DNA of 64,000 nt, from the NCBI RefSeq assembly GCF_001586215.1, contig NZ_CP014634.1:1302001-1366000 (forward strand), in the 5' to 3' direction. This stretch comes from Corynebacterium simulans (GTDB lineage: Bacteria; Actinomycetota; Actinomycetes; Mycobacteriales; Mycobacteriaceae). The notes under the pieces are model-generated. The model was not told the DNA's origin, searched no databases, and saw only the letters and a list, made by a program, of their open reading frames with translations. Below are positions 41,841-64,000 of the stretch, piece after piece; within the stretch, counting starts at the first letter, position 1, and the number at the start of each line of letters is the position of its first letter. The translations under genes and the position numbers were made by a program.

Positions 41841-42478
41841 TCCAATCTCCATTCTCGCTTGGTGCGCAGCCATGCCAGGACTGCCTTGACGCGGCGGTTT
41901 TCGTCTTCGGGGCTGAACCCGAGCTTCATGAAAACATTCGCCACGTGCTTGCTTACTGCACCGGCAGTGAGCACGAGCTTGCCTTCGATCTCGCGATTGC
42001 TGGCGCCTTGTGCCATCAAGGCTAGTACCTCGCGTTCTCGGGGCGTGAGCTTATCGACGCCCATCTTCCGGGAGGAGAGCAAAGTGCTCACGACTTCCGG
42101 ATCTACCACGGTGCCACCTGCAGAGACCGTATCCAGTGCATGGATGAACTCATCCACATCGGCGATTCTTTCCTTGAGAAGATAGCCGAATCCGCCGTGT
42201 TCGATGAGTCCGTCCAGGTAGCTGGCGGCGACGTATTGGCTCAACACCACGACGGGCTGCTCAGGCGTACGTTTGCGAATCTCATTGACTGCTCGCAGGC
42301 CGTCGTCCTGCAAAAGCGGCGGCATCCTGACGTCGGTGACAATGATGTCGAATCCTTCCGCCGCAGCACGCAATTGATCAGCATCTTCGACCGTGGTGAC
42401 CTCATGGTCCAAGGAACGCAGGAGTTGTTCGATTGCCGCACGCAGCAGGGCGGAGTCTTCAGCAAGCAAAATTTTCAT
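41837..42478 (-). CDS. Response regulator, NarL/LuxR type
   Basis: A 213-residue regulator: receiver domain with acidic pocket (KILLAEDSALL) and phospho-acceptor Asp in DIIVTDVRMPP (about residue 53), Lys in YLLKERI near 103, and a C-terminal LuxR helix-turn-helix (LTPREREVLALMAQGASNRE). It overlaps the kinase stop by four bases and is in operon with it. Confidence 0.93.
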   Translation of the reverse strand: MKILLAEDSALLRAAIEQLLRSLDHEVTTVEDADQLRAAAEGFDIIVTDVRMPPLLQDDGLRAVNEIRKRTPEQPVVVLSQYVAASYLDGLIEHGGFGYLLKERIADVDEFIHALDTVSAGGTVVDPEVVSTLLSSRKMGVDKLTPREREVLALMAQGASNREIEGKLVLTAGAVSKHVANVFMKLGFSPEDENRRVKAVLAWLRTKREWRLE

Positions 42479-43509
42479 GGCAGTCTCATCCTTAACCGTG
42501 CGCCCTGATCAGTGTCTTCTAGTTTCACGCTTCCGCCCAGGGCTATGGCGCGCTCTTCCAGGCCGGCGATGCCGGTTCCCTCGCCCGCGGTTAACCCATG
42601 TCCGTTATCGGTGATGGAAATTTTTATCCCTTCTCGGTAATCCAGCTTCACAGTCGCTGCGGTGGCCTCACCGTGCTTTACGGCGTTGGTTAGCCCCTCT
42701 GCCACGCAGTGATAGGCCAACAAGGCGCTGGTTTCATCAAGGGAGCGTTCTACGCCCTTGCATTCGAGGGTGATCTCCAGCCCGGAATGGACGAGGAGTT
42801 CTTCGAGAGCCGCAATCAGGCCATTATCGAAGAGGACCTGCGGTGCGATGCCGCGGACCGTGTCGCGCAAGGCGGAGAGAGCAAGGCTGGCGTTGTGGTC
42901 GGCGGCGTCGAGAGCCGCGGTGTCTCCCCTTTTCGCCGCGGCTAGGTTGAGCTTGAGCGCGGTGAGGTACTGCTGCGGGCCGTCGTGTAGCTCTCGTTCG
43001 ATGCGGCGGCGCTCGCCGGAGAAGGCGTCGATAAGCGTGGCTCGCGCATCGCTCTCCAACGCCAGGCGAGTGGTGCTCACGGAAAGAAAGGTCAAAAACT
43101 TCGCGCCGAAGATAAGGACCAGCAAGCACAGGCAGCCAAACGTCCAGCTCACCACGATAGCCAGGGCTCGATTTTCAATGACGAGGCTACCGATGTTGAA
43201 CCTATCCGTGAAGAAAGGAGCGATGAAGAATACCACCGTCATAGACCCCACGAACAGCCACAACGCCATGCTCAAAATCGAGAGCAAAAGCTGAATCAGA
43301 AGGTGATAAAATTGCTGCCAATCAAACCAGCGATGTGGGGTGCGGTAGCGAATCTTCACGCCCAACCACCGTGCGCCGCCGCGGGTAATGACGGCCATGA
43401 GGGACGCAACGAGCGGAATCCATGGCAGCATGACAACGGAAACCACAACAGCGGGAATACACAGCAGCGCTAGCACTAGATTCCACGCCACGGATTTGAA
43501 AGTTGCCAT
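42475..43509 (-). CDS. Sensor histidine kinase (NarX/DesK type)
   Basis: A 344-residue kinase from ATG 43507-43509 (MATFKSVAWNLVLALLCIPA). Membrane segments fill most of residues 8-160. The phosphorylated histidine is in ERRRIERELHDGPQQYLTAL (about 184-203), followed by the HATPase domain with DNGHGL and GTGIAGLEERAIALGG. It senses an envelope signal of unknown nature and passes phosphate to the downstream regulator; it faces a divergent ABC transporter. Confidence 0.9.
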   Translation of the reverse strand: MATFKSVAWNLVLALLCIPAVVVSVVMLPWIPLVASLMAVITRGGARWLGVKIRYRTPHRWFDWQQFYHLLIQLLLSILSMALWLFVGSMTVVFFIAPFFTDRFNIGSLVIENRALAIVVSWTFGCLCLLVLIFGAKFLTFLSVSTTRLALESDARATLIDAFSGERRRIERELHDGPQQYLTALKLNLAAAKRGDTAALDAADHNASLALSALRDTVRGIAPQVLFDNGLIAALEELLVHSGLEITLECKGVERSLDETSALLAYHCVAEGLTNAVKHGEATAATVKLDYREGIKISITDNGHGLTAGEGTGIAGLEERAIALGGSVKLEDTDQGARLRMRLP

Positions 43510-43620
43510 AGAGTACAACCCTAATCCGCACTTCGGACACACGCAGTGGAGCTAGCTCCCCTAAATTTCTGGGAGTCTCCCCCATCGGAATACTGCGCCT
43601 TTCAACGTGAAATCGAAAGC

Positions 43621-44217
43621 ATGACACTCATCGCAAAAAATCTCACGAAGAAATACGGCAAGAATCTGGTGCTAGACCATCTCTCGCTGCGCATTGAACC
43701 GGGCGAGTTCGTGGCCATCATGGGCCCTTCCGGCAGCGGCAAGTCAACACTCCTCGGCCTGCTTTCTGGCCTCGACAAACCTACAACCGGCAAGGTCAAT
43801 GCACCGGGGCGCAAGCACCGCGCTTTCGTGTTCCAAGACTATAACCTCCTGGAATCGCTTAACGCCCAGCAGAACGCGGAACTTACGGCGAAGTTCTCTG
43901 GCCGCAAATGCGGCCCGGCGAAGCTGCACCAGACCTTTGAGAGCTTGGGCATCGGCGGGCTGGAAAAGCGCTTACCGGCACAGCTTTCGGGCGGACAGCA
44001 GCAACGCGTCGCGGTGGCGCGAGCATTGCTTGCCGACGCCCCCTTCATCTTCGCCGACGAGCCCACCGGTGCGTTGGACGACGACACGGCGGACGTGGTC
44101 ATGGATCATCTCGTCCGCGTACCCAGCACGGTGGTAATGGTCACCCACTCGCACGCGGCCGCCGCGAAGGCCGATCGCATCTACAAGCTGGAGGAACACC
44201 ATGTCCGTATGGCTTAA
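43621..44217 (+). CDS. ABC transporter ATPase (MacB/LolD type)
   Basis: A 198-residue ATPase from ATG 43621: Walker [10 protein letters not shown] (about 37-45), signature [17 protein letters not shown], Walker [13 protein letters not shown]. It overlaps the FtsX-like permease by 17 bases. With the divergent two-component system it resembles peptide-sensing or detoxifying TCS-ABC modules; the substrate is unknown. Confidence 0.92.
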
Positions 44218-45412
44218 GGATCTACACAGCAATTGGCCTTCCTGGCTGGCGGTGGCGCTGACGTGTTTTATCTCCGGAATGGGATTCTCGCTCGCCGTAG
44301 CGCTCATTAACGCAACCGGTGATGACACAACTTCTCTGGGCGGAACCATCCTCGGGCTGGCTATCTGCTCCAATATTCTCGTCATTTTCTCGCAGATGAA
44401 GCTCATCATCGACGAGCACATCCACATCTACCGCAGCTGGCGCATGGTGGGCATGCCCAATTGGCTCATCTTTGTACTCGTGCTGGGTCAGATTGCGGCG
44501 GTCTCTACGTGCGGTGCGGTTCCTGGCGCCTTTTGCGCTACATTTCTCACGGACTTCGCACTCGATGCTTTCCACCGCGACAACATTCGAGTGGACGGTA
44601 TCTCCGTGACGATGGGCGGTGTTGTGCTTGCTAGTGCGGTGTGCGTACTTGCCGCAGTACTGGGTGGATTCTTGTCATTGCGGCGTATCTACCGTTCGGG
44701 GATGCCACGGTGGACAGCTGCCAAGTGTGCGCTCGCTTTAATCCTTGGTGCCGGGATCTTGTTTGCCTGCACCTTGATCGAAGATCCGATAGATGCAATG
44801 TCCGCGTGTTTGGGCCTTATCCCCTTGTTCGCATTCCTGGTTCCATGGATGTTGCCACTGCTTATGCAGTGGACCCGACCTCTCGGCATCGCTGGCGCGA
44901 ACGTGCGCGTACGCAGCAACTTCACCGCACCACATATCATGCCGTGGATCTTGTTCGGCGGCCTCATCATCGCCGTGGGCTCAGGTCTCCGCGCCATGTT
45001 GAGCATGGAGGAGGAGTTTACGATGTCGCCGTGGCAGGTGTTCGTAGTGGTACTCGGGCCGACGATCGCGCCGAGCGTGATGGCGGCGTTTACTACTTCG
45101 CTGTTAATGCGCAAGCGGATCGCTCACGACGCAGGGGCGCTAACTTTGGCGGGTGCTGCCAGGAACAGCATTTTCCGGGTACAAATCGGTGAAGCCTTCG
45201 CGCTGACAGCAACCACGACGGGATTACTGTCCGCGCTCACGCTCTTCATCGTCTTGCTCATGAACCACGGGATGACAGGAGAATACGCGCTCACCGGCTT
45301 CTGGTGGCAGGCGTTACTTGTGCAAGCTTGCGTGATGTTTATGGGTCTTTCCGGCTTCAAATGCGGGTTGGCCACAAACTTTAGGGATACAGCTGCGCAC
45401 GTCCGTCCGTAA
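44201..45412 (+). CDS. ABC transporter permease (FtsX-like)
   Basis: A 403-residue membrane protein. Hydrophobic segments lie near residues 15-38, 48-68, 86-110, 140-165, 170-195, 200-225, 240-262, 280-305, 335-360 and 370-390, so about eight to ten helices. It overlaps the ATPase gene and forms a transporter with it. Large extracytoplasmic domains are absent, unlike MacB. It overlaps the convergent lipoprotein gene by 32 bases. Confidence 0.85.
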   Translation: MSVWLKDLHSNWPSWLAVALTCFISGMGFSLAVALINATGDDTTSLGGTILGLAICSNILVIFSQMKLIIDEHIHIYRSWRMVGMPNWLIFVLVLGQIAAVSTCGAVPGAFCATFLTDFALDAFHRDNIRVDGISVTMGGVVLASAVCVLAAVLGGFLSLRRIYRSGMPRWTAAKCALALILGAGILFACTLIEDPIDAMSACLGLIPLFAFLVPWMLPLLMQWTRPLGIAGANVRVRSNFTAPHIMPWILFGGLIIAVGSGLRAMLSMEEEFTMSPWQVFVVVLGPTIAPSVMAAFTTSLLMRKRIAHDAGALTLAGAARNSIFRVQIGEAFALTATTTGLLSALTLFIVLLMNHGMTGEYALTGFWWQALLVQACVMFMGLSGFKCGLATNFRDTAAHVRP

Positions 45413-50453: not shown

Positions 50454-51146
50454 TTACAGTGATTTTCCCAATCCTGATTGGATCACCGTGATTGCGAGAC
50501 TGAGTCTTGAGGTTACGCCAAAACATGCGATGAGATGTGAGACGTGCTTTTTTACTGTCGCTTCGGAATACTTCATCGCAGAAGCTATTTCAGCATTGGA
50601 TAGCCCTTGGCATATATGTTGTAGGACGTGCGTCTCTGCTTCGGTAAGCCTTTCGTACACTGGGGAAAGGTTCGTTTGGGGAGATGCTGGTGTGAGAACT
50701 TTCCCCGGTATGTACTCAATGAGTCTGCTTAAGGCCTGCGGGGAAACTGTTGTGCCACCGGTCATCGCCTCTCGGACCGCAGTGATAATTGCCTGTGGCT
50801 GTGAGCTTTTAATGATGTAGCCGACACCGCCACCTGCCAACACCTTGAGCATGGTTTCGTCACTGTCAAGCGCGGTGATGGCTACGAATACAGGAGGACT
50901 CAGTCGACGTTGGACTTCGTGCAGTAACGTCACCCCGTCCATCTCCGGCATGTGGATGTCAGCTAGAATGATATCGACGTTAACACTGTCGATCGCAGTG
51001 AGTGCCTCGATTCCATTGCGTGCTTCCGCTACGACACGGATGTCCTCAGTGGTAGCGAAATATTGTCGAAACGAGTGCAGGACCAGCGGGTCATCATCGA
51101 CAATAAGGACCCGTTTTTCCATGTCATGCTCGCTCATTGTTGGCAA
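50454..51146 (-). CDS. Orphan response regulator, LuxR type
   Basis: A 230-residue regulator: receiver with VLIVDDDPLVLHSF, phospho-Asp in DIILADIHMPEMDG (about 60) and Lys in GYIIKSSQP (about 110), then a LuxR helix-turn-helix (LTEAETHVLQHICQGLSNAE). No kinase gene is next to it; instead a small secreted protein gene ends two bases away on the same strand. IS remnants on both sides suggest a kinase lost by rearrangement. Confidence 0.9.
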   Translation of the reverse strand: MPTMSEHDMEKRVLIVDDDPLVLHSFRQYFATTEDIRVVAEARNGIEALTAIDSVNVDIILADIHMPEMDGVTLLHEVQRRLSPPVFVAITALDSDETMLKVLAGGGVGYIIKSSQPQAIITAVREAMTGGTTVSPQALSRLIEYIPGKVLTPASPQTNLSPVYERLTEAETHVLQHICQGLSNAEIASAMKYSEATVKKHVSHLIACFGVTSRLSLAITVIQSGLGKSL

Positions 51147-51147
51147 C

Positions 51148-51369
51148 TTAGTTGCACCACCGAAGGGCTGGATGATGTTCGCAAGAGAAGATATCGGTGA
51201 TAGAGCCGAGTGTTGTAATAACGTGACTTTCCGTGTGCGGCTCTTGAACTTGGGGAATCTGCGATATCGGGAAGGTCGGTTCAGCCGTTGCGGAAGGGGT
51301 GACTGTCAAAGTTAGGAACGTCGCCGCTGTGAGGGGGGCAATAAGTTGAAGGTATCGGAAAGGTGACAT
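51148..51369 (-). CDS. Small secreted peptide of unknown function
   Basis: A 73-residue protein from the ATG at 51367-51369 with AGGA before it. Signal peptide: MSPFRYLQLIAPLTAATFLT, cleavage near TAE at about 30. The mature part of about 43 residues ends SCEHHPALRWCN with two cysteines and His-His. It is in the same unit as the orphan response regulator, first gene. It could be a secreted signal or a truncated larger gene. Confidence 0.5.
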   Translation of the reverse strand: MSPFRYLQLIAPLTAATFLTLTVTPSATAEPTFPISQIPQVQEPHTESHVITTLGSITDIFSCEHHPALRWCN

Positions 51370-51639: not shown

Positions 51640-53214
51640 ATGCAGTCTTCCAGAAGAAGCCAGAAAATTCTGGCTCGTTACGCCATTTTAAAAAATGCGC
51701 GTGCTGTCGCCGACGAACATAACGTCTCGCACAACACGGTTCTACGCGTGGTGCGCGCTCACGCTGACGCACCGCCAGTGCGTGGGCCACGTCCGTCGAT
51801 TACGGATGCGCACCGTGGATTCATCAAGGAACTGATCATCAACTCGGGCGGAAAGATCCGCGCTGACGTGGTCTATGAGGTTTTGCTGGACCGTGGTTTT
51901 GAAGGAAGCCAGCGCACCACGCATCGCATCGTCGCGACGCTCAAACAGGAATACCGCCTCTCGTCATCGCGGCGCGCACACCAGCGGTGGGTAACCGCAC
52001 CAGGCAAATGGCTCCAGTACGACTTCGGCGACGGCCCAGTAGTCGATGGCAAGAAGACCGTGTTGTTTGTGGCTTGGGTTGCCTACTCGCGATTCCACGT
52101 CGTCTTTGCTCTGCGTAACCGAAAGATGACTACCGTACTCGCCGCCTTAGACCGGTGCTTTCGGGCTATCGGCGGAGTACCCGACTTTGTGCTCACGGAT
52201 AATGAGAAAACCGTAGTTGTAGGCCGTCACGCAGGCCTGCCGGAGTTCAATCCGACAATGGAATCGTTCATGTCGCACTACCGCGTCAGTATCCAAGTCT
52301 GTGCACCGGCAGACCCTGCCACGAAAGGCGGAGTCGAATACGCCGTACGCCTAGCCAAAGACGACATTCTTCCCCGCGATACGAATCTCGTGGACGCCTA
52401 CGAGACCTTCGGCCAGTTCGAAGCAGCATGCCAGGCGTTTATGGACAAGATCAACGCCCGACCACACCGTACAACCGGGCTTGTTCCTGCAGAAGTACTG
52501 CGTGAAGTCGAAGCTAAACACCTCGGGCCACTGCCGGTGGACACGCATCCGAGTGTCTTCGGTGAACTGCGGAAAGTGCCGGCGAATACGCCCATGATCA
52601 CCTACCAGCACGCGGTGTACTCAGTGCCTGAAGAACTCATGGGCCAGCAATTCTACATCACAGAACAATCCAGCCCAGACGTCGATGAGGTCGTAATCTA
52701 CTTCCACGACATCGACGGGGTGGAAGAAGTCGCACGCCATGTCAAAGGAGCCCGCGGCGACAGCCGCATCGACCCGAACCATTTCTCCTTCCAACGGCCT
52801 GAGCCTGGCCACTACAAGGTCAATCCTCGCTCGAAACTAGAAAAAGACTTCCTTGCCATCGGACCTGGTGCCGAAGCGTGGCTGCGCTTTGGGGTTACCC
52901 ACCACGCACCGCAAATCAAACACACCATGAGTTTGTTCGTCACGCTGGCCGCTACGCGCGGGAAGTGGTTCGCTGATGACATCGCTCGCGCCGCGATCGA
53001 CGCGGGCCTTATCACCAGCACCGATATCGAAGCCATGGCAGATAACTACCCAGTCAACGCCCTAGCAGCCAAAATCGGCACGGCCTTTGATATCGAGGGC
53101 CCAGAACCTGAAACCATCGAACATGCCTCGAACTCCTGGGACGGGTTCTACACACCCACACCACCTAAGACCTCACACCACAAGGCCGACGCGCACGAGG
53201 AGGAATGGTTCTAA
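51640..53214 (+). CDS. istA: IS21 transposase IstA
   Basis: A 524-residue DDE transposase. An N-terminal helix-turn-helix (ARYAILKNARAVADEHNVSH) precedes the rve integrase core with QYDFGDGPVVDGKKTVLFVA, FVLTDNEKTVV and TKGGVEYAVRLAK, giving the D-D-E set. A C-terminal extension follows. The gene looks intact. istB starts directly after its stop. Confidence 0.93.
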   Translation: MQSSRRSQKILARYAILKNARAVADEHNVSHNTVLRVVRAHADAPPVRGPRPSITDAHRGFIKELIINSGGKIRADVVYEVLLDRGFEGSQRTTHRIVATLKQEYRLSSSRRAHQRWVTAPGKWLQYDFGDGPVVDGKKTVLFVAWVAYSRFHVVFALRNRKMTTVLAALDRCFRAIGGVPDFVLTDNEKTVVVGRHAGLPEFNPTMESFMSHYRVSIQVCAPADPATKGGVEYAVRLAKDDILPRDTNLVDAYETFGQFEAACQAFMDKINARPHRTTGLVPAEVLREVEAKHLGPLPVDTHPSVFGELRKVPANTPMITYQHAVYSVPEELMGQQFYITEQSSPDVDEVVIYFHDIDGVEEVARHVKGARGDSRIDPNHFSFQRPEPGHYKVNPRSKLEKDFLAIGPGAEAWLRFGVTHHAPQIKHTMSLFVTLAATRGKWFADDIARAAIDAGLITSTDIEAMADNYPVNALAAKIGTAFDIEGPEPETIEHASNSWDGFYTPTPPKTSHHKADAHEEEWF

Positions 53215-53904
53215 ATGAGCGCACCCAACTACCAGCTTCCCGCAGGGCTTTCCGCACAACTAACCAGGCTTCGAGTACCCGGGCTTAAAAGTGCCGCCAT
53301 TGACTACTTTCAATCATGTGACAATGACGCTCACCGCCGGCACCTGGAAGATTTTCTAGGCACCATTGTCGAAGCAGAAGCACTCAGCAGGGCCAAGTCA
53401 GCTCTAGTCACCAGGCGTAAAAATGCTGGACTTCCTACCGGGGTAAGTTTCGACGCGTGGGACCCAGCCAGGTCTACCATCCCAGTAGAACGCCAAGAAC
53501 ACCTCAAAGCCCTGAACTGGGTGGACCGCCACGACACCCTCGTTTTGTGCGGGCCACAAGGCACTGGCAAATCCATGCTCACCGAAGCACTTGCAGTCGA
53601 GCTGATTAAACGCGGCAAGAAGGTCAAGTGGCTCACAATGAAAAACCTCGGCCAACTCATTAACCGGCACGCTGCGGACTTGGACCCGCATAAAGGCTTT
53701 TCGAAACTCGCCAAACTGGACTTAGTCATCCTTGACGACGTGGGATACTTCGACGTTACCGTCGCTGAAGCCAACGGATTCCTCGCGCTTATTGAAGCGA
53801 CCTACCAGCACACCTCGCTGGCGATTACCCCAAACTCGCATCCGTCACGGTTCGCCGACCTCATGCCACAGGTACGCCCCACACAGATCAACGCCGCCAT
53901 CGAC
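53215..53904 (+). pseudogene. istB: IstB ATP-binding helper, truncated
   Basis: About 230 residues of an IS21 AAA+ ATPase: Walker A GPQGTGKSM (about 113-121) and Walker B LVILDDVGY (about 167-175). The frame is cut near INAAID, where normal IstB proteins continue with ~20-30 residues of the helical lid, and the TGA used as stop is from the IS3-type element. So transposition is probably impaired. Confidence 0.8.
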
Positions 53905-53954
53905 TGAAGTGCCCCAGGTTTTGTTCCGTTTGAGTAGATGGGAAAATTTGGAAC

Positions 53955-55190: not shown

Positions 55191-55214
55191 GGGAACAAAA
55201 CCCGGGGCACTTCA

Positions 55215-55539
55215 CTTCTGGGCTCTCGCCGGTCAACCCCCGGCTGCGGTACCAACTACCCGCGCTCAGCACCCAGGTAGGAAGCGGGAAACGGGGCGAT
55301 GCCAATGAAGGATACGAGATTCAAAGCCGCTGCCGGAATCGTCCAGGGATTGGCGAAACTGTCAGGATGAAGGAAAAAATTTGCTGCCACTGCCAGGATT
55401 CCGATGAGCCCAGTCCACTAGGGCAGAGGGGAAGGTGATTGCGTTAGCTTAGCCCACGTGCTTATCAATGATACTGGCTTTCTAGACATTTGTTTCCCGA
55501 AATTTGTCAGCGCTCGCAATCAGCATAATGGCACGTCAG
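55215..55539. other. Relic sequence and putative end of the bacteriocin operon
   Basis: No credible gene. A short frame (MKDTRFKAAAGIVQGLAKLS) near 55300 may be an IS relic. AGCTTAGCCCACGTGC (55446-55461) and GCACGTCAGCTAAGCT (55531-55546) are imperfect inverted repeats, 14 of 16 pairing, around 69 bases, at the 3' side of the last operon gene; they may mark a transfer boundary or take part in termination. Confidence 0.4.
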
Positions 55540-55857
55540 CTAAGCTTCTAGGGACACTTCAAACACGGGGGTGTAATACTCCAGCACGGTAGGGCTAGAG
55601 TTTGTGCAAACCCCATTCACTTCAACCCATTCAGTCCACTCTGATTCGCTCTGATCTGGATAGCTCCGGCGTGCGATAATGATTCGGCACTCGATATCCT
55701 GTTCAGAAAATTTAGTAATAACGTATTGAGCTAGTGCCTCATCAAAGTGGCTCCCCTCGATTTCTGTAAGTAGATTCCGAGTAAAACGTTTTTGCCGTTT
55801 ACTTATAGGTGAAGGGATTCTAAAAGAATAAGGGTCAACTCGCAGGCCTTCTTTCAT
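55540..55857 (-). CDS. Unknown protein, last gene of the defensin operon
   Basis: A 105-residue, mostly polar protein without signal peptide or membrane helix. It begins MKEGLRVDPYSFRIPSPISK and contains EWTEWVEVNGVCTNSS near residue 75-90, with two cysteines in total. No family is recognised. Its ATG overlaps the stop of the hydrolase-like gene by four bases, so it is translated with the operon; immunity or maturation are possible roles. Confidence 0.65.
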   Translation of the reverse strand: MKEGLRVDPYSFRIPSPISKRQKRFTRNLLTEIEGSHFDEALAQYVITKFSEQDIECRIIIARRSYPDQSESEWTEWVEVNGVCTNSSPTVLEYYTPVFEVSLEA

Positions 55858-56519
55858 GATCTATCTCTTTCTTTTAACCAGGTTACCATCCGATGATGAA
55901 CGCCATCTGTCGATAAGCATGCGTAACCATGGGATGTCCCCCCTACTTGAATTAGAGTCACATCTCCTCGCTCTGACATGGTTCGTAAGAAAAACCCCCA
56001 CGCGTCCAAGAATGGGGTCGAAGGATTGAGATCTTGTGTTCCATGACAAACAAGCAAGTGGTGGCGGTTATCGACCGTGACCCCCCTCCAGTCGAACCAG
56101 GGGGGAGTGGGATTCAGTGAGGTTTCTAAACTTGGCGAAAGGGTAATAGAAAACGGGCTACCAAATGGTGTTCGGGCACGATCGAAACAAGCTGATACCA
56201 CCACAGCGTTGATCGGGGTATCGAGGGTGTTGTTCAGCATGAGCCTGATTACACCGCAGCTTTCGCTAACCCCTATCATGTTGACGGAAATTGTGGCTCC
56301 CACTGGCTTAGGCTCCTGTATTTTAATAAGCCTCTCCATAATGGCGTTAGCGCACTTTGTTGCCACGGAGGCTGAGGAGAGCGAGGAACTCGGCAGGCTA
56401 ATGATACATGGTCTGACCATGATCTCATCGTGGCCATCTTTTTCAGTATCGATAAATTTAATATCAGGGTCATCTTCAGAAGTGAAACCCGCAAATGAAA
56501 TTATAAATAATTCAATCAT
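55854..56519 (-). CDS. Alpha/beta-hydrolase-like protein of the defensin operon
   Basis: A 221-residue protein. IGVSESCGV (82-90) resembles a nucleophile elbow with Ser85 (G-x-S-x-S), LLVCHGTQDLNPS places Asp163 in the usual HG-x-x-D position, and GGTSHGY gives His197, so a serine-hydrolase triad can be drawn. It has no signal peptide and is shorter than prolyl oligopeptidases. It might remove the leader of the precursor peptide, since the exporter lacks a peptidase domain; this is a hypothesis. It overlaps both neighbours by four bases. Confidence 0.65.
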   Translation of the reverse strand: MIELFIISFAGFTSEDDPDIKFIDTEKDGHDEIMVRPCIISLPSSSLSSASVATKCANAIMERLIKIQEPKPVGATISVNMIGVSESCGVIRLMLNNTLDTPINAVVVSACFDRARTPFGSPFSITLSPSLETSLNPTPPWFDWRGVTVDNRHHLLVCHGTQDLNPSTPFLDAWGFFLRTMSERGDVTLIQVGGTSHGYACLSTDGVHHRMVTWLKERDRS

Positions 56520-56953
56520 CTTTTTTCCAGCAACTTTTTAGACATGTCGTCCATTGTGACAACTTCAATATCGTTATCTCTTGTTGTATCTGCTACGCAA
56601 TAACCACTCAAGAGTAGATCGTTAGTTCTATGGTCAACGATATCTACAAGCATGCTGCGGGACACTTGAGACAAAACATTATTTATCGTTGATGTTCTAG
56701 CGTCAAGTTCTATGAAACTGGGTATGGCGGCATGTTTGTTTTGTCGCAAGGAAACGAGTTTCCCGTTCCATTTCCACGGTCCGTACGGGTCTGGAAGGTG
56801 GGAGCTAGTGCATAACAATGCAGAGGTGGTTAGACGTTTTTCGCTATCAGGACTGGAAGCTATCTCCATAAAGTCATTGATAAACCTGTCACTCACCCAG
56901 CTATTTGTCTCGGTAAAAAAAGAATAAGAAAGAACCCTGAAAAAAGGTAGCAT
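56516..56953 (-). CDS. Unknown protein of the defensin operon
   Basis: A 145-residue protein (MLPFFRVLSYSFFTETNSWV...). It is soluble except for the N-terminus, and no motif or family is recognised. Its ATG overlaps the stop of the ABC exporter (TAATG) and its own stop overlaps the next gene, so it is an integral part of the operon. Confidence 0.65.
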   Translation of the reverse strand: MLPFFRVLSYSFFTETNSWVSDRFINDFMEIASSPDSEKRLTTSALLCTSSHLPDPYGPWKWNGKLVSLRQNKHAAIPSFIELDARTSTINNVLSQVSRSMLVDIVDHRTNDLLLSGYCVADTTRDNDIEVVTMDDMSKKLLEKR

Positions 56954-58458
56954 TAATCCCCTCTGAATTCTATGGTTTGAGCGGGTCGGTCGATTACGCC
57001 ACCTTGGTGGCTAACCTCTATGAAGGACTTTTTTAATGAAAGGTCGGAGAGCAGTTGCTGGGCACATTTCACATTGTCTTCGTCGAGACCATTTAATGGT
57101 TCGTCTAGTGCTATGACCAAGGGCTTCCCAATGATTGCCCGAGCCAGGGATATTCTGCGAGCTTGGCCCCCGGATATATCGGCGCCATTTCCGTCAATGA
57201 GCGCCTGTGAGCCACCTCGATCCTGAAGTTCTGAAGTGATGCCAAGGGCGTCTAGAAACTTGTCGACTTCTGCGGGAGATATATCCCGCCCCATTGCCAC
57301 GTTCTCTGCGATCGTGCCATCTAGGAAGGCATTGGCTTGGGGGCAGTATCCTACTTGACCAGAAAATTTTCTATCTAGGTCGAGGATGGCAGATTTTAGA
57401 TACGTACTTTTTCCGCTACCAGACGGCCCGGTTAGTCTGACTAGGCTGTTTGGGGATTCGAGCATTTCGTGGCAGTCACGCACCGGTTGAAAATCTCTTC
57501 TACGGAACAGCGAACCAAGCGTCTCTCGTGCTAGGGTTCCTCTCTTCACGATCTCGAAGCAGTCTCCTAGGCTCGATAGTGGGCGAGCGACTAGCGAAGC
57601 AAAGGTCATTACAGCCACTGTTGATGCAACATCATCCTGTTGGTCGAAGTAGAGGTACCAGAGAAGGATGAAAGCGGGTGAAAGATGGTTGATCAGAGAG
57701 GGGACGAACGTCGCGATACTGGAATAGCAAGATTGACGGACTGAAGTTCGAAAATAACTGTTACCGCTGTCCCGTGTTCGCTGATTCGCCCACGACTCGG
57801 TGGCAGCAGCTTCTACAACATCTGCGAAATCAGGGACAAAACGTTGACGCATTGTTTTTGAGAAATGGGCAAGGCAGTCCATGTTCTCCCGCCAAGCTAG
57901 AGAGGATTTTCCGGCCAACCATTTGGAGCTGAGGATTGCGCATAAGGATGTCGTGCTGATGATGACCATAGCGTTGACTGTCATATCGTCAAGGACAACA
58001 AATGCGCCCGTGAATGCCGCGATCGATGACAGGATGGTGTTTGGCAAGCTCCGCCATGTGTCAATAAGGGTGCCTCCATCGTTCATTAACCGGGATTGAA
58101 GTTTATCTGGATCAGGCCGCGCCGCTCCTCGTGAGGACAGTACTTCTAAGGCAGTGGAGAACATGGAGCTTAAATGAACGATGTTTGCTTTCAACGTGAC
58201 GAGCTGTCCGATGAACAGTGAGGCAGGACCGGCGACAGTGAATGCGATGAACAAGATGATGTCCTCGGTGTCCAGGTTTCCTTGGGCGTACCCGCCTAAA
58301 GCCAGCTCCAAGCCTTTAGCTGGAAGTACCATTAAGAGACCTTGGAGGAAAGACACTCCCCAACTAAATATCACCCAGGTCAGCGCTGACTTTCCTAAGC
58401 CGAAGGTCCAAGAAACAGGTTGGCCGAAATGTTGTTCTCCCGTTTTTCTCTGTCCCAT
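56953..58458 (-). CDS. ABC exporter (fused membrane and ATPase domains), candidate bacteriocin exporter
   Basis: A 501-residue half-transporter. Membrane segments lie in residues 25-45, 65-90, 140-190 and 245-290; the ATPase has Walker [10 protein letters not shown] (344-352), signature ISGGQARRISLARAI (428-442) and Walker B LVIALDEPLNGLD (447-459). No C39 peptidase domain precedes it, so it cannot cut a double-glycine leader. It probably moves the precursor or mature defensin across the membrane as a homodimer. The stop overlaps the next gene; its ATG directly follows the MauE-thioredoxin gene. Confidence 0.85.
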   Translation of the reverse strand: MGQRKTGEQHFGQPVSWTFGLGKSALTWVIFSWGVSFLQGLLMVLPAKGLELALGGYAQGNLDTEDIILFIAFTVAGPASLFIGQLVTLKANIVHLSSMFSTALEVLSSRGAARPDPDKLQSRLMNDGGTLIDTWRSLPNTILSSIAAFTGAFVVLDDMTVNAMVIISTTSLCAILSSKWLAGKSSLAWRENMDCLAHFSKTMRQRFVPDFADVVEAAATESWANQRTRDSGNSYFRTSVRQSCYSSIATFVPSLINHLSPAFILLWYLYFDQQDDVASTVAVMTFASLVARPLSSLGDCFEIVKRGTLARETLGSLFRRRDFQPVRDCHEMLESPNSLVRLTGPSGSGKSTYLKSAILDLDRKFSGQVGYCPQANAFLDGTIAENVAMGRDISPAEVDKFLDALGITSELQDRGGSQALIDGNGADISGGQARRISLARAIIGKPLVIALDEPLNGLDEDNVKCAQQLLSDLSLKKSFIEVSHQGGVIDRPAQTIEFRGD

Positions 58459-59238
58459 TTACCTTTGCCCCTTCGCAAGGAACCCGATGATCTCGGTGAT
58501 GCCATTCAGCTGTCGGCTTTGAGGGGGCGCGGAGTTCTCATGGAAATAGACCAACGCAGTAGGAAAACTGGCAATCCGGTGAGCGCGAGCCAAGTCACTG
58601 TGTTTTTCATCCTCAAAGACGAGTGGGACGAAGAAGTCTCGATCCTCGATAATGCTCTTCAACACACGGCAGGAGTTGCATCCCTGCTGTGTGAGAATGG
58701 TGATTTCGGAGACCCCTTCGAAATCTATTTCCCGGTCATCGGGTAAAGAATGCTTAAATTTAGGCGGTCTAGATGTTCGCTTACGCTGCCACATGATTAG
58801 AATGAAACCGCCTGCCAGCAGTCCTAACAAGACCGAACCGGTTGAACGTGAAGGATCCGTCACCAATATCGATACTAGGTTTGTAGACGAAATAATGGCT
58901 AGTAGCGAGAGATGTAATTTGTCGATACTATTTTCGGATATTCCGAAACAATTACACTGTGTCCCACGGAGTAGAGAAGCAACCGTCAACAATGCTAGGA
59001 AATAGAGTCCTATCAGCAAGTTTGAGTAGGGAAACGGAATCCATACCCCAATCCCTATGACAATGAACTCTGTCAGGATTACTAACCAGTCAGCGATTTC
59101 TAACCCGGCTAACTTAGTTTGTCCCGTCCGAATTGTTATATTTGCCCAGAGCTTCTTTATCGCTGAGATCGCAAGAATTACTATGCCTGCGGTCAGTACG
59201 ACAGAAGGCATGCTAGTCAACGCCGTCATTGGATCCAC
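58459..59238 (-). CDS. MauE-like membrane protein fused to a thioredoxin domain
   Basis: A 259-residue protein. Residues 12-150 form a four-helix MauE/DoxX-like membrane domain with C95-N-C97-F-G, the cysteine pair typical of MauE. A short basic linker leads to a thioredoxin-like domain with C187-N-S-C190 and a cis-proline in SFPTAL (226). Such pairs relay electrons in disulfide formation. In an operon with an eight-cysteine peptide it most likely oxidises that peptide outside or at the membrane. The 3' end directly abuts the ABC exporter start. Confidence 0.85.
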   Translation of the reverse strand: MDPMTALTSMPSVVLTAGIVILAISAIKKLWANITIRTGQTKLAGLEIADWLVILTEFIVIGIGVWIPFPYSNLLIGLYFLALLTVASLLRGTQCNCFGISENSIDKLHLSLLAIISSTNLVSILVTDPSRSTGSVLLGLLAGGFILIMWQRKRTSRPPKFKHSLPDDREIDFEGVSEITILTQQGCNSCRVLKSIIEDRDFFVPLVFEDEKHSDLARAHRIASFPTALVYFHENSAPPQSRQLNGITEIIGFLAKGQR

Positions 59239-59423
59239 CGTTCGATTTCCTCTCTCACCTCAGGCGAAACCCACTGACTGATGTTTTGTTCGCGCGTAAG
59301 GGGGGACTCCATTGCTTTTACCTCTAAGTAAACTTCATGGGGAATTTCATAGATTTCCCACTGGGAGAGGCTAAAAAGGAAAAAATTCTCCTCGTTTTTT
59401 GCTACGCTCGCTTTTTTAGCCAC
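59226..59423 (-). CDS. Small protein of the defensin operon
   Basis: A 65-residue protein from a GTG at 59421-59423 (MAKKASVAKNEENFFLFSLS). It overlaps the preceding gene by 22 bases and the MauE gene by 13. It is rich in Glu and aromatic residues and has neither cysteines nor a signal peptide. Small size and position would suit a chaperone or immunity protein, but nothing more can be seen. Confidence 0.55.
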   Translation of the reverse strand: MAKKASVAKNEENFFLFSLSQWEIYEIPHEVYLEVKAMESPLTREQNISQWVSPEVREEIERWIQ

Positions 59424-60514
59424 AACTCCAACTCCAGACTCCGAAAAATAAAAAAGCTCTCCTGTGCTACATTTCGGGGGTTTTTAAAGGTTTCCCCCAG
59501 CAGATCTTCATCAATGATGCCTTCGGAAATGAGATATCCGCCGCGTAGTTCGGAGAAGATGCGCGGAGAGTTGGACATGACGAAATGATGCTCTTCTTGG
59601 CTCCGTGTCGCAGAACCAGTTACGCCATTGAGCGCATGGCCCGAAAATCCGACCGGAACTTTCGTTACAATGTTTCGAAAACTGTCATATCTCATCCGAG
59701 AATAATCAGGCGTGCCAATAACTGATTTCAAGAAGTGTTCATCGGTGACCGCGAAATCGAGGACGTGCCCCATTCCCAACGCCACTTTCTGAAGGATGGT
59801 CAAGCGGGGATTCATTTTTTCCCACACGACGGCGCTCGCCATTTTAGGAAGTTCTTTGAGAGCGCTGGTCCAAATAGCAGTGGAGCGTAACGCTTCTTCT
59901 TGACATAATTTGAGAGCCGAATCAGTCCAGAAGGTCGGCATCCGGAACGACGTACGCCCTCCGAGCGGGGTATCGTCGCTAGAACTATTAGCTTCGCTTG
60001 TTTGTCCCGAATTTCTTTTTGTTCCGAGCGTTCTTCTTTGAAGAAGCTCTATCACGGATGGCTTGTAACGATCTTGCGTACTGATAGACAAGAGCCCCCG
60101 AACTCCAAGAAATGAAATGAGACGATGCTCGTCTTCCCTGGCCAAACGACTAATTGCTAAAATGGAACCGTCTTCCCGATAATTCATAGGAAAATCTGCG
60201 AGGGAAAAAGCTGTTGAGTTAAGCCATTCCTCTATTCTGATTCCGCGATGGTTCACAGACCGATTGGCGAGACTGAAACCTGTCGAGACGCCACCTGGGT
60301 TAGAAGACACCAAGAACAGGGATTTCCGTTCTGCTGCCCAGGCGTCGATGGATCGCTTGTTGATCACCCTCCGGCGCGGGGTTGAGTCTTCAATATGGGA
60401 GATACCTTCTTCCACTAACGCCGAAATCATCTCCAGGTCACTTAGCTCAGGATGAGTGACCTTGTCGGTAGTGCGAAGCCCCACCAGCTGGACTAACCAT
60501 GCGGGGTTAATCAT
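59402..60514 (-). CDS. Unknown ~370-residue protein of the defensin operon
   Basis: A cytoplasmic-looking protein from the ATG at 60512-60514 (MINPAWLVQLVGLRTTDKVT), which overlaps the permease stop by eight bases; in-frame starts at 60523 and 60565 are possible. It is rich in Arg, Ser and Leu, without membrane helices, ATP- or metal-binding motifs. It does not look like a known RiPP-modifying enzyme. Since it is in the middle of the operon it may have a specific role such as leader recognition or regulation. Confidence 0.65.
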   Translation of the reverse strand: MINPAWLVQLVGLRTTDKVTHPELSDLEMISALVEEGISHIEDSTPRRRVINKRSIDAWAAERKSLFLVSSNPGGVSTGFSLANRSVNHRGIRIEEWLNSTAFSLADFPMNYREDGSILAISRLAREDEHRLISFLGVRGLLSISTQDRYKPSVIELLQRRTLGTKRNSGQTSEANSSSDDTPLGGRTSFRMPTFWTDSALKLCQEEALRSTAIWTSALKELPKMASAVVWEKMNPRLTILQKVALGMGHVLDFAVTDEHFLKSVIGTPDYSRMRYDSFRNIVTKVPVGFSGHALNGVTGSATRSQEEHHFVMSNSPRIFSELRGGYLISEGIIDEDLLGETFKNPRNVAQESFFIFRSLELELWLKKRA

Positions 60515-61733
60515 ATGCGCCATCCGTTCTGCGAATCTGAATCTCGGTGATGATGGGTACTGCAATGACGTAAGCCGCCAATATCCCTAGTGCATGGGGA
60601 GTGAAAGCATCCCATGGATTTAGGCTTGATACTTGCGCGACTGCAGCGGCTAGAACAGTGCCACCGATACAACCAAATAGCACGAAGGGAAGCGTAAGAC
60701 TGATAGTTTCGATGCGGATCAGCTTCTTGGCCACTGCATGTTGAACTCCACGTAAAGTGAGAACCTTAATTAGCTTGGCCCGGTCTCTGATCGCTGCAAT
60801 AGCGATTCCGCTCACTGCAGCTAGACCGAAGAGCAGAATACTGAGTGTCAACGCAGATGCCGCTTCACGGTACCCGGATGACATTGCAGAGTTGACATTG
60901 TCGATTCTTTCCTGCGATGTCAATCCGGTCTGGGTTTGTGTGACTGCAGACAAGACAACGTCAGGAGGAAGTTGTTCCAGATCCGCGTATAGATATCTGC
61001 CTGCACTGTTGATTTCATTATTGGACGTTGAAATGAGAATTTCCGTGAGTCCAGGAACTTCTTGGATTTGTAATGGCGGCAGTTGTAGCTCGGTATCCGT
61101 GGCTGGGATAACAAATTGAGGGGATAAGGCTGCTGAATCCGTTCCCTCTGGGATCAGCAATGATTCGGAGTCATTGGCTGGGCATTTAGGGTCGTCAGTG
61201 GCCAGCTCTGCATATTCATAGCAGGGCATAACGAACGCGTTTACTGAACGTTGGTTCTCTCTCATAATCCGGCCTTGGCCAAAAGTTCCCATTATTCCCG
61301 GTGCAGCAAATTCTTCGTAGGCATCTTTAAAATTGGCGTCATTGCGAAGAGCTCCCCAGTGAATTCCCTGCTTCCAGTAACTCGTCCCCGAACTTACTTG
61401 CCCTAGTCCGGCGTTTGCTAAACCAACTGTCACAGTGGATACGGCGCAAATGCAGAATAAGAGCACCACGCTCAAACCTATGGAAGTGGAACGGTAGCGA
61501 AGGGAGGACGAGATTAGAGTTCCCTGGATCCCTCCGCCGAAGAGCTTTTCATAACACCAGCCAGCACTGATAGCGAGAAAAGGTGCAAGATACACTAATC
61601 CAGCAATGATAGGGAGGAAAGCTAGAGGGACCAAGATTGGTAGGGAAAATATCTCGGAGAAGATGACCATCACGAATGCTAGAACTATGCCAGCCGGAAA
61701 GGCGACTAATCGCCATTTATACAGTTTCCGCAA
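60507..61733 (-). CDS. FtsX-like ABC permease, C-terminal half
   Basis: A 408-residue membrane protein from a TTG at 61731-61733. Helices near residues 12-30, 32-60, 88-110, then an extracytoplasmic domain (about 110-290), then helices at about 300-325, 350-375 and 380-400. This is exactly the second half of a ten-helix FtsX-like transporter. It overlaps the preceding half by 17 bases in another frame. Confidence 0.8.
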   Translation of the reverse strand: MRKLYKWRLVAFPAGIVLAFVMVIFSEIFSLPILVPLAFLPIIAGLVYLAPFLAISAGWCYEKLFGGGIQGTLISSSLRYRSTSIGLSVVLLFCICAVSTVTVGLANAGLGQVSSGTSYWKQGIHWGALRNDANFKDAYEEFAAPGIMGTFGQGRIMRENQRSVNAFVMPCYEYAELATDDPKCPANDSESLLIPEGTDSAALSPQFVIPATDTELQLPPLQIQEVPGLTEILISTSNNEINSAGRYLYADLEQLPPDVVLSAVTQTQTGLTSQERIDNVNSAMSSGYREAASALTLSILLFGLAAVSGIAIAAIRDRAKLIKVLTLRGVQHAVAKKLIRIETISLTLPFVLFGCIGGTVLAAAVAQVSSLNPWDAFTPHALGILAAYVIAVPIITEIQIRRTDGAYD

Positions 61734-62607
61734 AGAGCTTCATCCTCCTCAGATACGTCGCCACCCCGACCATGAGGGTGATGAGAACACCACAGCTAAA
61801 CGCTCCTATTAGACCCGCGAGAGCATCTTCGGGGAGGAACCCACGGCCTTCCCAGATAACTCTTTCGAGAATGCGAGATACGAGATACAGGGGCACGGCT
61901 GAAAATACAACGCTGATGAGGAGGCCGGCCAGAGGCGCAGCCGACAACAGGATGGCCGCAGTCCCTTTTTTCGCTCCTCGAAGGGTAAGAATGCGAGCAG
62001 TTTCTGCCCACTTAGGGTCGAAAATCTTGGAAACATTCCAAAAACACACCAAGCAGGGAATCACAACAACAATTAGATAGACTAGAACTATGTACATGAC
62101 GGTCTGATCTACCGTGGGTGCTGAATCCTTGGTCACAGTGTCACTACTTTCCATCGATTCATCTGTGGGCATAACAATGTTTACCGTTCGGGAGTCCGTG
62201 ACCGCTGTATCTTTGAGTGAGGAAGTACAGTCCAGAGCTTCCGTGTAGTGAATGAACCTGATAGGAGCGTTGTCTCCTGCTCCTGTGGCGCAGTCGAAAG
62301 GCTGCGTCTGATCCTGAAAAGGAATTTTATTGAGTCGATCAGTAGTAACGGATGTCAGTTCCAGAACCCCGTCGCCGGAAGCGATTGACCATGTCGACAA
62401 GTTCTGCTGGTTAGCGGTATCATCCGGAGATTGCCAGTGGGTACGTTCATCTGCATTAGCAAGCATCATTATTCCCATGAGTGGGAGAAGAATGATCACT
62501 AGCAGCGCTAGGTTAAAGAAACCTACGACGAAAACTTCGCTTGTATTCCGCTTTGCTAAGTCACCGAGATACACGAGAACCACCGATCTCGTAGACGGCG
62601 GAGGCAT
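61717..62607 (-). CDS. FtsX-like ABC permease, N-terminal half
   Basis: A 296-residue membrane protein: one helix (about 28-50), an extracytoplasmic domain (to about 170), and three helices (about 173-195, 228-252 and 265-285). It forms the first half of an FtsX transporter and should work with the preceding ATPase. The true start may be a GTG at 62574 or 62583, after the end of the ATPase gene; the ATG at 62607 lies inside that gene. Confidence 0.8.
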   Translation of the reverse strand: MPPPSTRSVVLVYLGDLAKRNTSEVFVVGFFNLALLVIILLPLMGIMMLANADERTHWQSPDDTANQQNLSTWSIASGDGVLELTSVTTDRLNKIPFQDQTQPFDCATGAGDNAPIRFIHYTEALDCTSSLKDTAVTDSRTVNIVMPTDESMESSDTVTKDSAPTVDQTVMYIVLVYLIVVVIPCLVCFWNVSKIFDPKWAETARILTLRGAKKGTAAILLSAAPLAGLLISVVFSAVPLYLVSRILERVIWEGRGFLPEDALAGLIGAFSCGVLITLMVGVATYLRRMKLFAETV

Positions 62608-63214
62608 TTCTGGTTACTCGGGCATCGTGAGTAACCACTACCACCGGGATCTGGAACTGCTGAGCTAGCTCTAGAAATAGATCCATCACAGTCCTGGCAG
62701 CTTCATCGTCGAGGCTGGAAGTTGGTTCATCCGCAGCAATTAGTGAGGGGCGGTTAGCGAGTGCACACCCAATACTGATGCGCTGACGTTCGCCTCCTGA
62801 GAGAGAGCTCGGGTGACGGTCTTCATACGATCTCATGTTTAATCGTGTGAGAATTTCCCTCGCTGTAATGAAACTCTGCTTTCTCCCCCCTCTGGACATC
62901 TCAGCAATTAGCCGGATATTATCGCGGCAGGTCAAATCCTCTATTAGATGGTTCTCTTGATCTACCACGCCAATATTCTTGAGACGAAAGTCTCGGCGTT
63001 TTTGCTCAGGATACTTTGAGTAGTCCTTTCCTGAGAGTGAGATCGTTCCAGAGTCTGGTTGGTCGATTCCTATGATGCATCTAAGCAGGGTAGTCTTGCC
63101 ACTTCCGGAAGGTCCAGTGATAGCAATTAATTCGCCCTGGCCAACGGAAAGGTTAACCTTATCTAGGATAGATTTCCCCGAAATGCTCCTGCTGATGTCG
63201 CTAACTTCTAGCAT
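62561..63214 (-). CDS. ABC transporter ATPase of the defensin operon
   Basis: A 217-residue MacB/LolD-type ATPase from the ATG at 63212-63214 (MLEVSDISRSISGKSILDKV): Walker A GPSGSGKTT (about 35-43), signature LSGGERQRISIGCAL (about 140-154) and Walker B LIAADEPTSSLD. An earlier ATG lies inside the hairpin and is rejected. With the FtsX-like halves it forms an ABC transporter, plausibly for self-protection against, or export of, the peptide. Confidence 0.92.
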   Translation of the reverse strand: MLEVSDISRSISGKSILDKVNLSVGQGELIAITGPSGSGKTTLLRCIIGIDQPDSGTISLSGKDYSKYPEQKRRDFRLKNIGVVDQENHLIEDLTCRDNIRLIAEMSRGGRKQSFITAREILTRLNMRSYEDRHPSSLSGGERQRISIGCALANRPSLIAADEPTSSLDDEAARTVMDLFLELAQQFQIPVVVVTHDARVTRNASAVYEIGGSRVSR

Positions 63215-63235: not shown

Positions 63236-63269
63236 AATAGTGTGTCGCCGATATCGGCGACACACTATT
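63236..63269 (-). terminator. 34-bp perfect palindrome after the defensin gene
   Basis: Perfect inverted repeat with 17-base arms, centre GCCGATATCGGC, lying 12 bases after the defensin stop. On the coding strand it is followed by TATTTATTTT. It can form a strong hairpin and act as a leaky terminator or RNA-stabilising stem, so that the short peptide message outnumbers the long operon message. Confidence 0.7.
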
Positions 63270-63280
63270 CCGTCTTTCTT

Positions 63281-63475
63281 TTACACGCAGACGCAGCGCA
63301 GATCGAGGAATCCCTCGCAGTAACCGCCGGCAGAGTTGTAGTTGTCTCGACAGTAAGCCGCACAGCGGCCTTCCGAAGGGCAGCCACAGCATTCTGCCGG
63401 AGCGGTGGTGGCGTGCAGGTTTAGGTTCCGGGCGGACTCAGTAGACTCAGTGCGAAGTGCGAATCCAGGCATCAT
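63281..63475 (-). CDS. Defensin-like (CS-alpha-beta) bacteriocin precursor
   Basis: A 64-residue peptide, stop TAA at 63281-63283. Two ATG codons stand in tandem at 63473-63475 and 63470-63472; AAGGAG is better spaced for the second. The leader (about 1-27) is polar with RTESTESARNLNL. The core has cysteines at 29, 30, 32, 38, 42, 53, 61 and 63: C-AAY-C (C-x3-C), ten residues, GGYC, seven residues, C-V-C. That is the CS-alpha-beta defensin pattern of fungal plectasin and of the bacterial bacteriocin actifensin (C-x3-C, GGYC, CxC). Eight cysteines would give four disulfides, one more than those. Antibacterial action is inferred. Confidence 0.85.
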   Translation of the reverse strand: MMPGFALRTESTESARNLNLHATTAPAECCGCPSEGRCAAYCRDNYNSAGGYCEGFLDLRCVCV

Positions 63476-63676
63476 TTCTCCTTCTTATCTGGAGCACAGC
63501 TGGTTTGCTATGCACTGTAGATGTTAGAGGAACTTGTTCGATCGCCAGGGCAAAAGAAGGAAACAGGATACAAAAGTCACCACCCCTTCGAGGGGTTGAA
63601 GAAAGAGCAAGAAAACGGGCTGGGCCGTCGAAGTAGCCGAGGATGCGCGTATAGACGAGTTGGACGGCATGGGGCC
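63476..63676. promoter_or_regulatory. Upstream region of the defensin gene
   Basis: About 200 bases of which the first ~80 should hold the promoter on the minus strand. No good -35/-10 pair can be fixed (TACAGT near 63514-63519 is a possible -10). CCCCTTCGAGGGG (about 63584-63596) is a hairpin that could stop transcription coming from the IS element. No gene is seen. Confidence 0.4.
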
Positions 63677-64000
63677 TGGCCCCCGGAAAGTGGACACGTC
63701 GGGGGTTAGCTATGCTGCTTTGGTCAGTGTAGCTGATGTGAGTGCTTCGAAGTCATCGGGAGCTAGAAGGTTGCACCACGAGTGTCGCCGGCGCGTGTTG
63801 TAGCGCATGCACCACCGGAAGACTTCCTGCCGGCAGATAATGGGATTGTCAAAGACTTTCCTATCACGCAAGACTTCCCGCTTTAAGGTGGCGTTAAAAG
63901 ATTCTGCTAGGGCGTTATCCGCACTCGTTCCTACCGCGCCCATGGATTGGCGCACACCCAACGACGAGCAATAGCTCCTAAAGGCTTGTGAGGTGTACAC
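63677..64000 (-). mobile_element. IS3-family element, end at 63677, runs off the window
   Basis: The likely terminal repeat TGGCCCCCGGAAAGTGGACA begins at 63677. It contains the 3' end of an OrfB transposase gene. The other end is outside the window. It forms the right border of the bacteriocin island. Confidence 0.75.
63710..64000 (-). CDS. IS3-type OrfB transposase, C-terminal part
   Basis: At least 96 residues at the C-terminus of an IS3 OrfB. The visible part includes GTSADNALAESFNATLKREV, with the catalytic glutamate of the DDE triad, and MRYNTRRRHSWCNLLAPDDF at the end. The N-terminal part, with the first catalytic aspartates, is beyond the right edge of the window. Confidence 0.9.
   Translation of the reverse strand: MYTSQAFRSYCSSLGVRQSMGAVGTSADNALAESFNATLKREVLRDRKVFDNPIICRQEVFRWCMRYNTRRRHSWCNLLAPDDFEALTSATLTKAA

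Follow-up and report, generated by a model that had tools for sequence, protein, structure and literature searches.

Organization of the peptide locus

The subject of this analysis is a gene for a defensin-type peptide, together with its neighboring gene cluster, in Corynebacterium simulans, situated in a stretch of 64,000 nucleotides (contig NZ_CP014634.1, positions 1,302,001 to 1,366,000) that is referred to as the window and in which all coordinates are counted. The precursor is encoded by an open reading frame (ORF) of 64 codons on the minus strand (63281-63475), with eight cysteines at residues 29, 30, 32, 38, 42, 53, 61, and 63. Two consecutive ATGs open the ORF, and a Shine-Dalgarno-like AAGGAG was read upstream in the window sequence (63478-63483, minus strand); AAGGAG is also present in L008, the locus of Corynebacterium sp. 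NML140438. Because the second ATG is where the closest homologues start, a start at 63472, giving a 63-aa precursor, is likely. A preliminary description of this DNA had recognized the eight-cysteine, 64-residue precursor with its spacing pattern and GGYC, without naming a strand, as well as the lack of a Gly-Gly cleavage site in the leader; both observations hold, as no Gly-Gly precedes the core. The core follows the pattern C32-x5-C38-x3-C42-x10-C53-x7-C61-x-C63, preceded by the pair C29-C30, and its ten-residue spacing between the third and fourth cysteines is presumably the same as in plectasin. Since Glu28 is invariant among homologues and maturation at an acidic residue has been published (PMC8819291), we infer cleavage after Glu28, which would separate the leader (residues 1-28, 63392-63475) from the predicted mature part C29-V64 (63284-63391). 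For this mature part a mass of 3859 Da is calculated in the reduced form and of about 3851 Da with four disulfides. The source genome contains a single match to the peptide. No sigma-70-like promoter was found upstream of the gene. Just upstream lies an integrase-core ORF of an insertion sequence (PF13683, window 63710-64000), and past the window end further transposase-like ORFs follow, judged by reading (L054).

Downstream of the peptide gene and on the same strand lie a palindrome and a series of genes, most of which overlap or abut. The palindrome (63236-63269, 34 nt, perfect) could form a hairpin and is perhaps an attenuator; in L008 it is still perfect, three stem pairs being altered on both sides, and it is missing from L006 (Corynebacterium sp. 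NML130628). It is followed by the gene of an ABC transporter ATPase of 217 aa (62561-63214; PF00005, E 2e-35; ATG common to L006 and L008) with a likely function in immunity, and by those of two membrane proteins read as permeases. The first of these (61717-62607, 296 aa) matches no family over cut-off and was assigned by position and hydrophobic sequence, and the second (60507-61733, 408 aa) shows a weak match to the ABC permease YbbP (E 0.0087, under cut-off). Next come a 372-aa relative of actinodefensin-associated protein A (59402-60520), which is shorter than its full-length relatives, and a 65-aa ORF (59226-59423) that by position takes the place of protein B. The following gene (58459-59238) encodes a MauE-like membrane protein with a thioredoxin-like end, a CxC and a CxxC (PF07291, E 0.0011, under cut-off), which is likely to make disulfides, and the next a 501-aa ABC transporter with a fused membrane part (56953-58458; PF00005 over cut-off at E 1.3e-14, PF00664 only at E 0.044), the likely peptide exporter. 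The series ends with two short ORFs, one of unknown kind (56516-56953, 145 aa) that does not match the S9 peptidase profile and has an ATGA overlap with the next, and one of 221 aa (55854-56519) that is perhaps an alpha/beta hydrolase end and a counterpart of afnE, its hhalign comparison with three S9 peptidases being weak (E 0.02, probability 2%).

All four other actinobacterial loci that were read (L007, L009, L010, and L011) have the common order peptide, A, B, MauE/thioredoxin-like protein, and ABC transporter. A divergent S9-peptidase-like gene precedes the peptide gene in L007, L009, and L011, not in L010, and was recognized by Pfam in L007 and by 40-43% identity in the others. The MauE/thioredoxin-like proteins retain CxC and CxxC in all five loci, and the window copy matches that of L007 (blastp E 2.5e-8); against the Pfam MauE family (cut-off 27) the window protein scores 19.6 and that of L007 24.6, and that of L009 gives no match. 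Set against the published description of the actifensin operon (afnB to afnI plus ABC transporter genes), the transporters, a LuxR-type gene, and three genes of unknown kind are possible counterparts. No subtilisin was noticed among the window ORFs read.

Predicted fold and conservation of the peptide family

The peptide is predicted to fold as a cysteine-stabilized alpha-beta (CS-alpha-beta) defensin, in the manner of insect and fungal defensins. An AlphaFold2 model of moderate confidence has a helix (residues 35-46) followed by two strands (51-54 and 60-63) on the six-cysteine core, and the Foldseek matches listed are defensins and related CS-alpha-beta proteins. Searched against solved structures (PDB), the family profile finds BmKDfsin3 best (E 1.1e-6) and also MGD-1 (E 3.9e-5), so that the defensin type, helix, and two strands proposed in the preliminary description are borne out by prediction. 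BmKDfsin3 (scorpion) and MGD-1 (mussel) share with the window peptide the six-cysteine core, the x7 loop, and GGYC, whereas these animal defensins lack its ECC start; MGD-1 also has four disulfides, according to its title, but its extra cysteines are placed elsewhere.

Homologue searches returned 9 and subsequently 23 proteins. An alignment of 21 rows was composed of the window peptide, 19 of the 23 proteins from the second search, and P0014 from L007. It omits P0001, which is the window's own protein, the frameshifted P0005 and P0009, and P0033 with its six cysteines; the six-cysteine Nannocystis peptide of L012 was not added either. P0005 and P0009 are stored proteins with the family leader and an out-of-frame mature part, and represent more damaged gene copies. 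P0033 and L012 10001-10168 are six-cysteine defensin-like precursors with GFGCP, a long N-terminal part, and a shared EGFLDL loop; no further cluster gene was matched in L012.

All eight cysteines are kept in 20 of the 21 aligned sequences, the exception being P0003 with seven. There Ser replaces Cys32 and both C29 and C30 are kept; as seven cysteines are left, one of this pair may substitute for Cys32. The adjacent pair C29-C30 occurs in 21 of 21, as does Cys-Cys-Gly before the first core cysteine. The Pro that follows that cysteine, Tyr46, and the GGYC stretch are conserved as well. The 19 invariant positions are all located from Glu28 onward, and the leader is poorly conserved. The mature peptides of L007 and L009 are identical over 38 of 38 codons and their leaders are 59% identical. 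As 49% of the synonymous sites in the mature part have changed and no non-synonymous ones, this part of the peptide is under strong purifying selection. The retrieval of solved defensins by the profile, the cysteines kept in 20 of 21 sequences, and the identity of these two mature parts place the peptide similarity beyond chance. Counted from Glu28, the charge is negative in 16 of the 21 peptides, neutral in 4, and positive in 1; leaving out Glu28 raises every charge by one, after which 11 of the 21 are still negative.

Homologue hosts include Micromonospora rosaria, Saccharothrix algeriensis, Stackebrandtia albiflava, and an Actinomycetales metagenome-assembled genome. Within Corynebacterium 4 of 242 genomes matched, and among the three that remain after exclusion of G142 only the source genome has an undamaged gene. 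The weak matches G142, G349, G410, and G499 (E 3.6e-5 to 9.1e-4) were, on reading, attributed to chance. The peptide and cluster DNA were unmatched in 72,556 plasmid records, among which records near the source genome may be absent.

Relation to characterized defensins and possible target

The NCBIfam actinodefensin model NF038042 scores the window peptide at 33.1 bits (E 6.2e-8, cut-off 65), which makes it related but outside the limit of the model. In 396 genomes of the phylum this model detected only the source genome, under cut-off, and none in 19 genomes of another family, in scans whose controls gave no signal. Actifensin as query gave no match in 21 genomes of the family, in a search without positive control. 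The published actifensin motif C-x5-12-C-x3-C-x9-10-C-x4-5-C-x-C (PMC6989792) differs from the window peptide in the fourth loop, which is x7, and agrees in the other spacings. Shared with actifensin and the NCBIfam actinodefensins are the six core cysteines, the Pro after the first of these, the Glu just before the mature part, the CS-alpha-beta fold (predicted here), and ABC transporter genes alongside. The window peptide differs from them in having two more cysteines, eight in all, in a loop of x7 from core cysteine 4 to 5 where theirs is x4-5, in its acidity, in its conservation as opposed to their diversity, and in the position of the transporter set, which is downstream of the peptide gene here and upstream in their clusters.

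Lipid II binding or a block of cell-wall synthesis is known for the nearest characterized relatives: actifensin binds lipid II with a dissociation constant of 30 nM (PMC12284004), and actinomycesin inhibits cell-wall synthesis (PMC8819291). The Gly-aromatic-Gly that precedes the first core cysteine in the GXGCP group of lipid II binders is absent from the window peptide; where these relatives have Gly-aromatic, the window family has Cys-Cys. This loss of residues tied to lipid II binding, together with the acidity, would fit an exported eight-cysteine defensin-type peptide with another target, or a signal peptide, in which a single fixed partner accounts for the strict conservation and the acidity. 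The 19 invariant positions point the same way, being the opposite of the diversity and positive selection described for Actinomyces defensins (PMC8819291), as does the proximity of a LuxR-type response regulator gene and a fragmentary kinase gene to the cluster. Such a role is nevertheless considered unlikely in view of the retained Tyr46 and GGYC stretch, the activities of the relatives mentioned above, and the resemblance of the transporters to an immunity and export set.

The preliminary description regarded Corynebacterium as a new producer genus and the peptide as a new variant, neither of which is sustained. One Corynebacterium homologue was reported in 2020 (Sugrue, PMC6989792), with the remark that it might not be functional, as it lacked the operon. 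CBSIN-2 of Corynebacterium sp. KPL1995 was described in 2021 (EMBO Mol Med, PMC8819291), with two adjacent N-terminal cysteines modeled as a vicinal disulfide. CBSIN-2 resembles the window peptide in genus, defensin type, and an adjacent cysteine pair before six core cysteines, a likeness drawn from its description and not from its sequence; its gene cluster is not given in the available parts of that report. The eight-cysteine type is no corynebacterial specialty either, as it occurs in Micromonospora, Saccharothrix, Stackebrandtia, and the Actinomycetales genome. The novelty looks to lie in the neighboring gene cluster rather than in the peptide. In the literature searched, neither the term actinodefensin nor the asparagine-synthetase fold of protein A, the redox partner, or the retained transporter was met, and among the matches listed, which covered few subscription papers, none linked defensins with asparagine-synthetase-type or MauE proteins.

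Proteins A and B

The A proteins tested all score below the cut-off of NF038043 (250 bits): L007 64.7, L009 44.1, P0015 36.5, L010 19.7, and the window 15.4 (E 0.0084). It does not recognize P0021, a protein of 370 aa related to the window's A, and in 394 genomes of the class it gave one weak match (E 3.8e-4), under cut-off, in a scan whose controls likewise gave no signal. The window A nonetheless matches that of L009 (blastp E 2.4e-10) and, over 178 aa, four full-length relatives (hhalign E 4.7e-6, probability 86%). The L009 protein has a predicted asparagine-synthetase two-domain fold, which is that of lasso cyclases and beta-lactam synthetases, the window copy being known from sequence only. 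Identity of protein A to lasso cyclases, TsnB9, beta-lactam synthetase, and AsnB is only approximately 10-15%. A profile of protein A against PDB sequences gave one row (E 1), and Pfam scans of four A proteins, those of the window, L007, L009, and L010, showed no family over cut-off.

Ligases of the asparagine-synthetase type carry the PP-loop motif SGGxDS. Its Asp is absent from all five A proteins compared, which read SGGVAS, SGGLAS, SGGISS, or AGTAS, the window copy having no SGG. The predicted fold could suggest for A the role of an active ligase, one that would amidate, cyclize, or otherwise modify the peptide, as such enzymes cyclize lasso peptides and amidate or nitrilate the C-termini of ribosomally synthesized and post-translationally modified peptides (RiPPs; PMC13060819). 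A modified RiPP is very improbable given the missing Asp and given that actifensin, whose cluster is related to that of the window, has a mass equal to its unmodified peptide less six hydrogens (PMC6989792).

Protein B is recognized by NF038044 (cut-off 45) in L009 (70.9 bits), L011 (70.1), L007 (64.5), and, under cut-off, L010 (34.3), whereas the 65-aa ORF of the window is unmatched and shows 23% identity in the alignment. As candidate RiPP leader-binding (PqqD-like) proteins, the four B proteins, without the window ORF, were compared with 29 PqqD and lasso segments (18 of 20 PqqD loci and 11 of 15 further loci), which gave P 0.004 at a probability of 8%, the best of 20 shuffles reaching 0.038; with the PqqD set alone the value was 0.039. 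A profile of protein B against the PDB yielded nothing below E 0.33.

Mobile elements, remnant loci, and probable immunity genes

The response regulator near the cluster (50457-51218, minus strand; PF00072 and PF00196) matches the L006 protein at 74% over 255 of 255 residues, and the kinase fragment (55274-55516, minus strand) matches residues 40-120 of the 425-aa L006 kinase at 56%. In L006 regulator and kinase adjoin each other close to what remains of the cluster, whereas in the window transposase genes separate them, and to judge from this arrangement insertion sequences broke the kinase gene next to the cluster. An IS21-like element occupies 51640-53907, and 23-nt inverted repeats (53905-53927 and 55192-55214) resemble the ends of another element. 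Read from translations only, a second LuxR-type regulator (41837-42478, minus strand) and a kinase-like ORF (42475-43542, minus strand) lie beside genes for an ABC ATPase and a membrane protein (43546-45412, plus strand). As the gene that follows the L006 and L008 remnants is approximately 330 kb away in the source genome, the cluster there sits at a different place.

The peptide gene carries different lesions in the two remnants, lacking the stretch with the Shine-Dalgarno sequence and leader in L006 and being frameshifted in L008. Of A only the first codons are recognizable (approximately 20, if counting begins at 60520, the start in the window), and the window B and MauE/thioredoxin-like genes find no match in either locus. 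In both loci the ATPase and the two membrane proteins nevertheless retain their full length, and because they do so where the peptide gene is broken, these three genes probably constitute an immunity set. Ratios of non-synonymous to synonymous substitution rates for these genes range from 0.14 to 0.21 for L006 and L008 versus the window, and for L006 versus L008 amount to 0.44 for the ATPase and 0.33 and 0.19 for the membrane proteins, so constraint is perhaps weaker in the latter strains. The locus in C. simulans might likewise be in decay and no longer functional in this strain, considering the two different lesions within the genus, the stored frameshifted copies, the transposase genes that flank the cluster on both sides, the fragmented kinase, and the split of the hydrolase region into two short ORFs. 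Decay is a distinctly improbable account, as the reading frames from the peptide gene as far as 56953 are open, with overlapping or abutting ends, and an identical protein (P0001) represents 37 contigs.

Proposed mechanism and implications

The reading favored here, which we hold at about even chances, is that of an oxidized and exported eight-cysteine CS-alpha-beta peptide, cut after Glu28, that acts as a bacteriocin by blocking cell-wall synthesis via lipid II. Proteins A and B would serve to bind the precursor and present it, not to modify it, because the A relatives have the asparagine-synthetase fold without the PP-loop Asp and actifensin is unmodified by mass. The MauE/thioredoxin-like protein would introduce the disulfides, the fused ABC transporter would export the peptide, and cleavage would release C29-V64, while the ATPase and two likely permeases (60507-63214) would shield the producer. 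Bacteriocin activity is likely; the weakest step is lipid II as the target, which is transferred from actifensin and actinomycesin. More tentatively, and with considerable doubt, these defensins may be matured on a hijacked lasso-peptide line, in which a pseudo-cyclase A and a leader-binding B pass the precursor to a membrane disulfide machine and exporter.

The presence of the cluster beside the gene in C. simulans contrasts with the absent operon of the 2020 Corynebacterium homologue, and the peptide belongs to an often acidic, strictly conserved eight-cysteine branch that is spread over several actinobacterial genera. Two NCBIfam families that are named only as actinodefensin-associated gain a testable role. 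If A is a scaffold with the lasso-cyclase fold, bacterial defensin production would be tied to RiPP pathways, and it would be clear why mining for asparagine-synthetase relatives by Pfam misses A, given that no Pfam family exceeded its cut-off in the A proteins scanned. On the lasso-line reading, if true, a defensin fold common to animals and fungi would be matured in bacteria by RiPP hardware.
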